Positions 458 through 18,530 of a stretch of 43,210 nucleotides of DNA are shown here, piece after piece (within the stretch, counting starts at the first letter, position 1; each line of letters begins with the position of its first letter). Under the pieces are notes generated by a model, which was not told the DNA's origin, did not search any database, and saw nothing but the letters and a program-made list of their open reading frames with translations. The position numbers and the translations under genes were made by a program. The DNA comes from Candidatus Nomurabacteria bacterium (GTDB lineage: Bacteria > Patescibacteriota > Minisyncoccia > Phycocordibacterales > CAIJYI01), in the NCBI GenBank assembly GCA_943356445.1, contig CALREZ010000008.1:1-43210 (forward strand), in the 5' to 3' direction.

Positions 458-498
458 CGTCTCGGTCACCTGACTTAGTATATGACGGCTGCGGGACT
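458..498 (+). repeat. att-like direct repeat copy A
   Basis: CGTCTCGGTCACCTGACTTAGTATATGACgGCTGCGGGACT; matches 18490-18530 with one mismatch. Confidence 0.85.
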
Positions 499-581
499 GG
501 TTTTCTGGTCTCTGTGGAGTGTGTGGCTAGAGGTGTGGGATATTTTGAGGCTGTTTTGGCTGTGGTTGTCGCCCTCTTGCT

Positions 582-628
582 AATCTCATATAATCAGATA
601 TAATCAAATACATAACCTATATGAGATT
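582..628. promoter_or_regulatory. perfect 11-bp inverted repeat flanking the fic promoter
   Basis: AATCTCATATA (582-592) / TATATGAGATT (618-628) directly before the ATG at 629; TATAAT at 599-604 lies between the arms. Confidence 0.6.
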
Positions 629-1684
629 ATGAACAATAGATTTTCAAAAAGAATAGCTTTGATCTCCTCGGTTTTTGAACAACAAATTCGGGAAATTGAT
701 GAGCTGAAAAATAAGTGGTCAACCGGCGCGGAACTCGATCGGCAGATTTTGAGCCGCCTCAAAAAATCGGTGCTTGTTACCTCCACCGGTGCATCAACGC
801 GTATTGAAGGTTCGCAAATGTCCGATGAAGATATTGAAAAACTGATGCGGGGGTTATCTATTCAAAAATTCAAAGATCGGGATATTCAGGAAGTGAAAGG
901 ATACTATGAATTGCTCACGAATATTTTTGACGGATATCAGTCAATACCCTTTTCCGAAAGCACGATAAAATTTTTTCATCGCGAACTGCTCAAACATACC
1001 GACAAAGATGAGTTGCATCGGGGAGAATATAAAAAGATTGAAAACAGGGTTGAGATGATAAATAATGCTGGAGAATCAATCGGGGTTCTTTTTGATACCA
1101 CGAAAGCATATCTCACGCCGAAAGAAATGCAAGAATTGGTGGAATGGACGCAAGAAGCGTTTCTCGAAAAAAAATATCATCCGCTTCTTATCGTCGGAAA
1201 TTTTATTGTTGAGTTTTTGAATATCCACCCTTTCCAAGACGGCAATGGAAGAATTTCTCGCGTACTCACCAACCTGATGCTTCTCCAGCAGGGCTATTTG
1301 TATATGCCGTATATTTCACACGAAAAGCTTATTGAAGATAACAAACCGGAATATTATCTTGCGCTCAGAAAAAGCCAGAAAACTTTTCGAACAAACAGCG
1401 AGGATTTAACGCCATGGCTCTCCTTCTTTTTTGGAGTTATGCTGGAGCAATCCAAACGAGCCGTCGCACTGCTTTCAGAAGAAGAAACCGATAAACTTTT
1501 ATCCAAGCAGCAACAACTGGTATGGAAATACATGGAAACCGTTCTGGAATCCACTCCGCTCGAAATATCAAAAGCAACCGGAATTCCCCGTCCAACAGTG
1601 GTGCAGTCTATTGCAAAACTGCTAAAAATGAAGCGAATTGAACGAATCGGTTTAGGAAGAAGTACAAGATATCGGAAAATTTAA
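629..1684 (+). CDS. Fic family protein (Fido domain with C-terminal wHTH)
   Basis: Fic motif HPFQDGNGRISR; C-terminal winged-helix-like segment (LEISKATGIPRPTVVQSIAKLLKMKRIERIG). Confidence 0.92.
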   Translation: MNNRFSKRIALISSVFEQQIREIDELKNKWSTGAELDRQILSRLKKSVLVTSTGASTRIEGSQMSDEDIEKLMRGLSIQKFKDRDIQEVKGYYELLTNIFDGYQSIPFSESTIKFFHRELLKHTDKDELHRGEYKKIENRVEMINNAGESIGVLFDTTKAYLTPKEMQELVEWTQEAFLEKKYHPLLIVGNFIVEFLNIHPFQDGNGRISRVLTNLMLLQQGYLYMPYISHEKLIEDNKPEYYLALRKSQKTFRTNSEDLTPWLSFFFGVMLEQSKRAVALLSEEETDKLLSKQQQLVWKYMETVLESTPLEISKATGIPRPTVVQSIAKLLKMKRIERIGLGRSTRYRKI

Positions 1685-1726
1685 AAAATACCGTCTTCAA
1701 ATTTTATTTGAAGACGGTATTTTTTC
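1683..1726. terminator. bidirectional rho-independent terminator
   Basis: AAAAATACCGTCTTCAAA-tttta-TTTGAAGACGGTATTTTTT. Confidence 0.85.
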
Positions 1727-1757
1727 TGGTGACAACCGGTCGCCCTTTTGTCGGAGG

Positions 1758-1785
1758 CGTCTCGGTCACCTGACTTAGTATATGA
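1758..1785 (+). repeat. att-like direct repeat copy B (28 bp identical to copies A and C)
   Basis: CGTCTCGGTCACCTGACTTAGTATATGA; degenerate partial copy CGTCTCAGTCAC at ~1868. Confidence 0.8.
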
Positions 1786-16252: not shown

Positions 16253-16347
16253 AAATGAATAATACCGTATAAATTATATTTTGTTAACTTGGTTATTTTT
16301 TACCAACTCCACGGGGTCTGGACTCCCTAGAGCCATTCTGTCATTGA

Positions 16348-17640
16348 TTGTATTGTATGGAAAAACAACAAATTCAAGAGGAATTGCGGTACTGCCTCTA
16401 TGCGAGAAAAAGTACAGAAGCGGAGGACAAACAGGCTCTTTCTATAGAGTCTCAAGTCAAAGAAATGCAGGTGCTCGCCGAACGGGAGCGCCTGCACATC
16501 GTGGAGATAAAGCGTGAGGCGCATTCATCCAAAGAGGTTGGACAAAGACCTGTGTATAATGAGATGCTGAACGAGATTAGATTGAAGAAATTCAATGCGA
16601 TACTAACGTGGGCACCCGATCGCTTGAGCCGAAACGCGGGCGACCTCGGTTCGGTGGTGGATTTGATGGATCAGGGATTACTCCATGAAATACGGACGTA
16701 CGGACAAAAATTCACGAATAACCCGAATGAAAAATTTCTGCTGATGATTCTCGGGAGTCAGGCAAAACTTGAGAACGACAACAAGGCGGTGAATGTAAAG
16801 CGCGGGTTGAGAACTCGATGCGAAATGGGTTTGAGACCTGGCGTTGCACCGACCGGATATTTGAATGAAAAACACGTTGATAAAAAATGCCAATGTAGAA
16901 TTGACCCGAAACGCGCACCGGTCATCAAGCAAATGTTTGAGAAAGTCGCCTACGACCAATGGAGCGGTCGGAAAATATATCGCTGGCTGTGCGAAACGGA
17001 TTTCAAAACTCATCGAGGAAAACCTCTGGTACTCGCGAATATCTACATCATTTTGAGAAATCCTTTCTACTATGGCGAATTTGAATACCCGATCAAAAGC
17101 GGAAACTGGTATACCGGCAAACATACGCCGATAATTGATAAAGAATTATTCAACAAAGCTCAGACTACCTTGAATGAAAAATTTATTCCAAAAACAGAAA
17201 GCAAAGAGTTTGCTTTCACAAGGTTGCTCCAGTGCGGATACTGCGGTTCAGGAATATCCGCTGATGAAAAATTCAAGAAGCTGAAAGACGGCGGAGTAAA
17301 TCGGCACGTGTACTATTTCTGCACAAAAGCCAGAAACATAGATTGTAAAAATGAGTACATAAACGAACCGAGCTTGATTGAGGAACTAATCGGGCTGATG
17401 GACAAAGTAGACCTCGATGAACTCGGAATACGAACGAGAATTGAAGACGAGATAAAACGATTCAATAAATTCAGATCAGGTGTGCTCGGACACAAACAGG
17501 ATAAAATTGAAATTGATGTAGACGTTAGAAATTACACAAAATATTTACTAAGAGAAGGCACTCTTGTAGAAAAACGTGAATTGCTTGGTTGTCTGCAAAG
17601 CAAGCTATTTTTGAAAGACAAAAAGATAACACTTAAATAG
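16348..17640 (+). CDS. large serine recombinase with zinc ribbon
   Basis: Resolvase N-terminus LRYCLYARKSTEAEDKQALSIESQ, LTWAPDRLSRN, recombinase region, LLQCGYCGSGISADE zinc ribbon; start may be M4. Confidence 0.93.
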   Translation: MYCMEKQQIQEELRYCLYARKSTEAEDKQALSIESQVKEMQVLAERERLHIVEIKREAHSSKEVGQRPVYNEMLNEIRLKKFNAILTWAPDRLSRNAGDLGSVVDLMDQGLLHEIRTYGQKFTNNPNEKFLLMILGSQAKLENDNKAVNVKRGLRTRCEMGLRPGVAPTGYLNEKHVDKKCQCRIDPKRAPVIKQMFEKVAYDQWSGRKIYRWLCETDFKTHRGKPLVLANIYIILRNPFYYGEFEYPIKSGNWYTGKHTPIIDKELFNKAQTTLNEKFIPKTESKEFAFTRLLQCGYCGSGISADEKFKKLKDGGVNRHVYYFCTKARNIDCKNEYINEPSLIEELIGLMDKVDLDELGIRTRIEDEIKRFNKFRSGVLGHKQDKIEIDVDVRNYTKYLLREGTLVEKRELLGCLQSKLFLKDKKITLK

Positions 17641-17668
17641 AAAAAACTGCCACGTCGGCAGTTTTTTC
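17641..17668 (+). terminator. terminator
   Basis: AAAAAACTGCC-acgtc-GGCAGTTTTTT. Confidence 0.8.
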
Positions 17669-17676
17669 CTTTGTGA

Positions 17677-18501
17677 TTATTTAGTAGTCTTATCGGCAAG
17701 CTTCGCTAGCAAACTAATATATGCGATAAATTCCAGAGCCATCTCGGGATCATCTTTGATAATTTTATGCGCTCGCGGATTTCGCAAGCCGGCGACCGCA
17801 CCGGAAAACATCATCATAAATCCTTTTTGCTCGTTTAACCCGGCTTCATCGGAAAGCGGGTTGAATTTCAAAATCGGATTTTTTGTACTGAACACATACT
17901 CCATAAGAGCAGTACCATCTTTGTCATCGATTCCGCTATTCATGCGCACCAATGCGTTTAATGCTTTTACTGCATCTTCCACTGCATTAGAGTAATGTCC
18001 ATCACGAAACAGCGCACCTGAAGCGCGTTCTATTGCAGGATGTAATTCAAGCCCTTCATAGGCTTTAAGTGTTTTCCCTGTCGATGTCCTTCCAGCATCC
18101 CCGAGTTCTTCCAAAAAACCCTTTTTAATGGATTCAAGGTTAGCCTTTGATGCGGCGATTCCATTACGAAGACCTTCACGGACTTCATGGATTGGGGTCT
18201 CGTACATCATATTCATCGAGGCTGTATCTAAGCGAGTTACACCCCAGCGATACCGGTCATATTCGACCGTACCCGACCCAAATATAGAAACAAGAAGCGC
18301 GTCAAGTTCTTTTTCTAACGCATCAATTTTTGGATCCCGCCGATTCTCAATTAAATCGACGTTAAAGTTGTTAAGGTCAGAAATTCTTCTCTCTATTTTT
18401 GGGAGAGCTAATTCCATCTGTTGAAGAGATAAATTCGCGGATATTGGGGTATGAGGTTTTGCTTTTCCTGGCATAAAAATATGATGACGCGTCTCGGTCA
18501 C
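17677..18501 (-). CDS. TIGR02391 (Ymh)-like protein
   Basis: C-terminal LHPAIERASGALFRDGHYSNAVEDAVKALNALVR...GLRNPRAHK matches the remembered pattern of TIGR02391. Confidence 0.65.
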   Translation of the reverse strand: MTETRHHIFMPGKAKPHTPISANLSLQQMELALPKIERRISDLNNFNVDLIENRRDPKIDALEKELDALLVSIFGSGTVEYDRYRWGVTRLDTASMNMMYETPIHEVREGLRNGIAASKANLESIKKGFLEELGDAGRTSTGKTLKAYEGLELHPAIERASGALFRDGHYSNAVEDAVKALNALVRMNSGIDDKDGTALMEYVFSTKNPILKFNPLSDEAGLNEQKGFMMMFSGAVAGLRNPRAHKIIKDDPEMALEFIAYISLLAKLADKTTK

Positions 18502-18530
18502 CTGACTTAGTATATGACTGCTGCGGGACT
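18490..18530 (+). repeat. att-like direct repeat copy C overlapping the tRNA-Gln 3' end
   Basis: CGTCTCGGTCACCTGACTTAGTATATGACtGCTGCGGGACT. Confidence 0.85.

Follow-up and report, generated by a model that had tools for sequence, protein, structure and literature searches.

Gene content of the island at tRNA-Gln

The window analyzed here, 43,210 nucleotides long, is the entire contig C8 of a Candidatus Nomurabacteria bacterium. It holds a tRNA-gene genomic island, with a junction at the 3′ end of a tRNA-Gln (CTG) gene that is kept intact. Two units were delimited: unit 1 (~16.7 kb), with a serine recombinase and defence genes, and unit 2 (~1.3 kb), with only a Fic gene and no recombinase. The genes are as follows:

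144..392, plus strand: left-hand ORF, 82 aa, no convincing homologue
629..1684, plus strand: Fic protein, cargo of unit 2 (PF02661; SoFic)
1927..8859, no single strand: defence-like cargo of unit 1 (the four genes below and two unknowns)
2692-4917: AAA_13 ATPase
4953-5369: Vsr
5464-7044: LexA-C5 methyltransferase fusion
7045-8214: type II restriction enzyme
9470..11515, plus strand: ParB-N6 methyltransferase (442 aa) and terminase-small-subunit-like protein (234 aa), recurrent partners of the recombinase
11604..16252, no single strand: other cargo of unit 1 (NDK-like, two Nudix, a 660-aa protein, DHQ-synthase-like)
16348..17640, plus strand: large serine recombinase, 430 aa, proposed integrase (Pfam Resolvase, Recombinase and zinc ribbon)
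17677..18501, minus strand: Hypoth_Ymh/HEPN-like protein, 274 aa, adjoining repeat copy C (PF09509; PADLOC Aga_HEPN / PD-Lambda-3_B)
18520..18591, minus strand: tRNA-Gln (CTG), proposed insertion target (ARAGORN)

The recombinase has the domains of a large serine recombinase, with PF00239, PF07508 and PF13408 all above cut-off; its PHROG annotation is integrase and its best solved-structure matches are the YokA/TP901-1 integrases. As the sequence-only reading had stated, it is the only recombinase of the island: there is no tyrosine integrase within it, and the single PF00589 (tyrosine recombinase) protein of the source genome, 327 aa, is encoded on another contig. Homologues of the ParB-N6 methyltransferase and of the terminase-small-like protein occurred in 24/80 and 27/80 related recombinase loci, respectively, hinting that the pair is a conserved element backbone. 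Within the defence-like cargo, the ORF at 5464-7044 encodes a complete LexA (DNA-binding and S24 peptidase domains, with an AAG cleavage-like site) fused to a C5-cytosine methyltransferase, and it adjoins the restriction enzyme and Vsr genes. The fusion and its neighbours possibly constitute a damage-regulated restriction-modification system.

Three repeat copies share one element end

The sequence-only reading took the island to be bounded by two direct repeats, copies A and C, interpreted as attL and attR of one element. Sequence comparison bears out the details of that repeat: A (458-498) and C (18490-18530) differ at a single position over 41 bp, the final 11 nt of C (18520-18530) form the 3′ terminus of tRNA-Gln (CTG), and A reproduces this end as 11 bp within the A/C match. 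The accessory island at tRNA-Gln thus stands, but A and C are not a simple pair, as a third copy, B (1758-1791), absent from that reading, lies in the same orientation with 28/28 core bases identical. With a 29-bp core and up to three mismatches allowed, the window gave three matches versus none in 100 dinucleotide shuffles. The core search found no copy besides A, B and C in the whole 1,051,814-base genome; the repeat is not scattered over unrelated loci, in line with what the island reading called for. The junctions, with the conserved unit end beside B, are as follows:

458..498, minus strand: copy A, distal end of unit 2 (...ACCAGTCCCGCAG, like the tRNA-Gln 3′ end) joined to a third R end (repeat comparison)
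1758..1791, minus strand: copy B, internal junction between the other element end (...GACTCAGTCAG) and the same R end (G002 contig C1 has this junction at 95%)
1787..1929, minus strand: conserved distal (L) end of unit 1 (match to G002 contig C1)
18490..18530, minus strand: copy C, tRNA-proximal junction (attL-like), tRNA 3′ end and element R end CAGTCATATACTAAGTCAGGTGACCGAGACG (repeat comparison)

A, B and C are all the same element end (R), in the same orientation and sharing at least 28 bp. Read outward from the tRNA on the minus strand, copy C runs from the tRNA through GTCCCGCAG into CAGTCATATACTAAGTCAGGTGACCGAGACG, copy B from ...GGGGTTCGCAACTGACTCAGTCAG into CACTCATATACTAAG..., and copy A from ...AAAACCAGTCCCGCAG into CCGTCATATACTAAG...; across C, B and A the right half (R) is constant, and the left half changes from the tRNA in C to a different unit end in each of B and A. 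Because R stays constant while the left half varies, the arrangement reads as stacked units and not as one attL-attR element, and A, B and C appear to be consecutive boundaries within a tandem array that comprises unit 1, unit 2 and the start of a third unit that runs off the contig. The attL/attR interpretation is not supported, since an attR should join the other end of the element to native DNA, whereas A, B and C present the same end in the same orientation.

A single 18-kb island, with A as attR, C as attL and copy B as an older internal scar, would account for the agreement of A and C over 41 bp, including the 11 bp of tRNA end, and for the tRNA-like side of A. We nevertheless judge it unlikely: it sits poorly with an R end of 28+ bp shared by A, B and C in one orientation, with the conserved L end that copy B carries and that recurs in G002, and with the DNA left of A, which is not recognisable chromosome (its ORF has a marginal match in 299 genomes). 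It also needs native post-tRNA DNA identical to R, and the R 14-mer is present in only 10/399 genomes.

Under the array reading, copy A holds 11 bp of the tRNA end, where the Islander criterion would look for a displaced fragment, followed by another R end, with the contig end nearby. Only 457 bp remain to its left, and the true distal end of the array probably lies off the contig, the array being predicted to continue leftward. The left-hand ORF in this remainder, which gave one marginal match (29%, E=5e-4) in 299 genomes of the order, is probably part of the third unit; the match is consistent with this, short of proof. The tRNA-Gln itself is intact, but the three bases after its discriminator are CAG, not CCA.

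Alignment with a relative ends at the tRNA 3′ end

Relative G001, of the same genus and without copies of A, B or C, aligns with 86% identity over 2.5 kb of the right flank, starting exactly at the tRNA 3′ end. It has the same tRNA-Gln followed by CCA; beyond the tRNA 3′ end comes CCAACACGTGCTAGCACGAGAGG, then other genes. As other recombinase loci also have the motif CGTGCTAGCACGAG after tRNA-Glu and tRNA-Ser, the G001 site may be either untouched or occupied by another element. The empty site proposed for relatives has a candidate on one side, where the alignment ends precisely at the tRNA, but none with its two flanks complete was found among the fragmented, metagenome-assembled relatives. 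G000 and G001 also share their flanks up to the tRNA 3′ end and then part at tRNA-His (C31) and tRNA-Ser (C15). A search for distal ends gave no matching far side for the left-hand ORF, for the G001 gene after tRNA-His or for the G000/G001 tRNA-Ser flanks. Further large serine recombinases are encoded on G000 contigs C6, C14, C31 and C15 (L043, L044, L045 and L049); those on C14 and C31 overlap the 3′ ends of tRNA-Ser and tRNA-His, respectively, and that on C15 is a fragment beside tRNA-Ser.

The array-like junctions recur in G002. On contig C23, a recombinase 95% identical to that of the window adjoins tRNA-Gln and has the same R end. On contig C1, the stretch corresponding to window 1757-1929 is 95% identical and the part at 1788-1882 occurs a second time, so that the same L end appears twice, once joined to R and once as TCAG joined to CCAAATCGTGCTAGCCCGAGAC. 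The latter (L040, ~998), where the same other end is followed by CCA and different DNA, is the only candidate attR found; TCAG joined to CCAAATCGTGCTAGCCCGAGAC is how an attR would be expected to look if the CCA had been displaced from the tRNA. We infer a single array spanning C1 and C23. A ~430-bp unit at ~548-998 of L040 has both element ends and no ORF of at least 90 aa, and is a minimal passenger unit. Also in G002 (L039), a truncated tRNA-Gln copy (5′ ~50 nt) comes before the complete gene that borders the element (~195-250 and 410-481).

A reading in which the tRNA gene belongs to the mobile element instead of being its target appears extremely improbable. The tRNA-Gln of G002 speaks for it, being only ~72% identical and lying on a small contig that also holds a truncated tRNA copy, but G001 has the same tRNA next to the same conserved genes and lacks this element.

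Recombinase lineage and tRNA genes across the order

The R-end 14-mer CTAAGTCAGGTGAC was found in 10/399 genomes of the order (reversed control, 0), and all five genomes with a recombinase at least 85% identical to that of the window are among these ten; by counting that ignores relatedness, an overlap of this size has a chance of ~3e-9. R-end copies outside arrays each abut a tRNA-Gln, CTG or TTG, and in G395 the R end meets a tRNA-like sequence not called as a tRNA. Both anticodons are mixed within clades of the recombinase tree.

The sequence-only reading had flagged as a puzzle that the only recombinase at a tRNA site, classically the territory of tyrosine integrases, is of the serine type. 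The puzzle is real and general. Among 80 homologues of the window enzyme in GTDB genomes, a tRNA 3′ end faces the gene within 3 kb downstream in 37 and an upstream-facing one occurs in 1. We further examined 80 Pfam PF07508 loci of the same order, picked mainly by contig position and not by similarity to the window protein: a tRNA 3′ end faces the gene from no more than 1 kb downstream in 40/80, and 0/80 have any tRNA within 1 kb upstream, where ~1 is expected from the upstream density of 12 tRNAs in 426 kb. No facing tRNA was found within 6 kb downstream of 29/80 recombinases, some of these loci running off contigs, and the compared loci, which come from metagenome-assembled, fragmented genomes, are not fully independent. 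In 32/80 recombinases the reading frame extends into the tRNA, by 12-210 nt and with 18 anticodons represented, and in the longer recombinases of the order (>475 aa) the 3′ end of the gene is antisense to the tRNA end. Among loci L182-L261, longer serine recombinase frames end inside tRNA genes, with antisense-tRNA C-termini such as GFEP, ENRTPI and DSNPR. On a tree of the window-enzyme family (a quick search, with SH-aLRT as the only support), tRNA isotype changes 10 times (minimum 8), versus a mean of 20.2 after shuffling and 0/200 shuffles as low. By these sequence comparisons, the tRNA association is strongly tied to the recombinase itself. Further R-end copies were present in only 2/97 loci tested, so arrays are a minority.

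A tyrosine integrase, since lost or acting in trans, could have made the tRNA insertion and left the serine recombinase as cargo, tRNA 3′ ends being the classic target of that enzyme class (PMC4383910). We consider this very improbable, because the one PF00589 protein of the genome lies elsewhere, recombinase lineage predicts tRNA isotype and the frame terminates inside or past a tRNA in 32/80 serine recombinases. Of 99 near-complete genomes of the order, most likewise have one PF00589 protein, presumably the Xer housekeeping enzyme, and 69 have PF07508 proteins.

A probable tRNA-anchored array of mobile units

We regard it as likely that the recombinase built the locus as an array of mobile units anchored at the 3′ end of tRNA-Gln. 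In the proposed mechanism, a circular unit would carry an attP formed from its two ends, L (...GACTCAGTCAG) and R (CAGTCATATACTAAGTCAGGTGACCGAGACG), and the 430-aa recombinase, as the putative catalyst, would recombine it with the tRNA-Gln 3′ end, with the crossover placed at or near the acceptor-terminus CAG. Insertion would leave the tRNA intact save for its encoded CCA, set R against the tRNA (copy C) and push L, together with the former downstream DNA, to the distal side. With each further insertion at the tRNA, the units would stack in the suggested order, so that internal junctions read L joined to R (copies B and A), and the recombinase-free Fic unit would have been moved in trans. Such stacking would require that a site made of a tRNA half and an R half serve as a target, as in cassette chromosomes. 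To our knowledge, the attP × attL insertion needed for this is not standard for phage serine integrases. For the longer recombinases (>475 aa), insertion would also swap the C-terminus of the recombinase, given that the gene 3′ end is antisense to the tRNA end, as in streptococcal rumA elements, which recombine within the 3′ end of the integrase gene (PMC4701971).

Relation to known systems

The staphylococcal and enterococcal SCCmec/ECC cassettes resemble the island in their large serine recombinase, fixed target at a gene 3′ end, variable cargo and ~50-bp similar att repeats, with extra att copies reported in some strains (PMC6222049). The island likewise has several such copies (A, B and C) bounding stacked units, of which the Fic-only unit 2 is without a recombinase. 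It differs in using a tRNA gene, tRNA-Gln, instead of rlmH, in having a single recombinase instead of the ccrA/ccrB pair and in the phylum of its host. Islander/TIGER islands of tyrosine integrases share the insertion at tRNA 3′ ends that leaves the gene usable, the shifts of specificity between targets and the accretion of units (PMC4383910, PMC9513070), whereas the recombinase here is of the unrelated serine family. Phage and ICE serine integrases (SP-beta YokA, TP901-1 and streptococcal rumA elements) have the same domain order and give the best structure matches, but their surveyed targets are protein genes or non-tRNA sites, and the repeats of streptococcal ICEs are 2-21 bp (PMC4701971, PMC5357655, PMC10654092).

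Published surveys credit the tRNA target only to an enzyme class unrelated to serine recombinases. The open-access literature searched, bioRxiv excepted, contained no account of serine integrases that target tRNA genes in Patescibacteria; a 2025 TIGER/Islander note, in the portion considered, does not split targets by integrase family (PMC12424338), and serine integrases at tRNA genes may already be listed in a database. The window recombinase is a member of a widespread group that appears to use tRNA genes as insertion sites. We find it reasonably likely that large serine recombinases took over the tRNA niche of tyrosine integrases in Paceibacteria and some relatives, that their lineages switch isotypes (Gln, Ser, Arg, Trp, Glu, His, Ala, Leu and others) and that some build tRNA-anchored cassette arrays with recombinase-free units moved in trans. 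If true, this would overturn a stated rule about the integrases that act at tRNA genes, reveal the principal integration enzyme in a vast group of uncultured organisms with tiny genomes and show how ultra-small uncultured cells gather defence genes. Genome engineering would then also gain many serine integrases whose natural sites lie at conserved tRNA genes.

Additional searches and observations

Two candidate signatures were discarded. A C after the discriminator base, considered as a mark of crossover, is also shown by other tRNA genes in the same loci (77/87), and the R pattern taken for a circular attP in viral contigs consisted of two chance matches inside a phage gene. Recombinase-bearing viral contigs had no terminal repeats, and a search for displaced tRNA-end repeats in the 14-21 kb around the loci gave few matches, the majority being further tRNA genes or ends resembling a tRNA. 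Outside the island, the window contains at 24240-30683 a 2147-aa ORF made of short tandem repeats (NT.G..N.A.G..SLYSNT).
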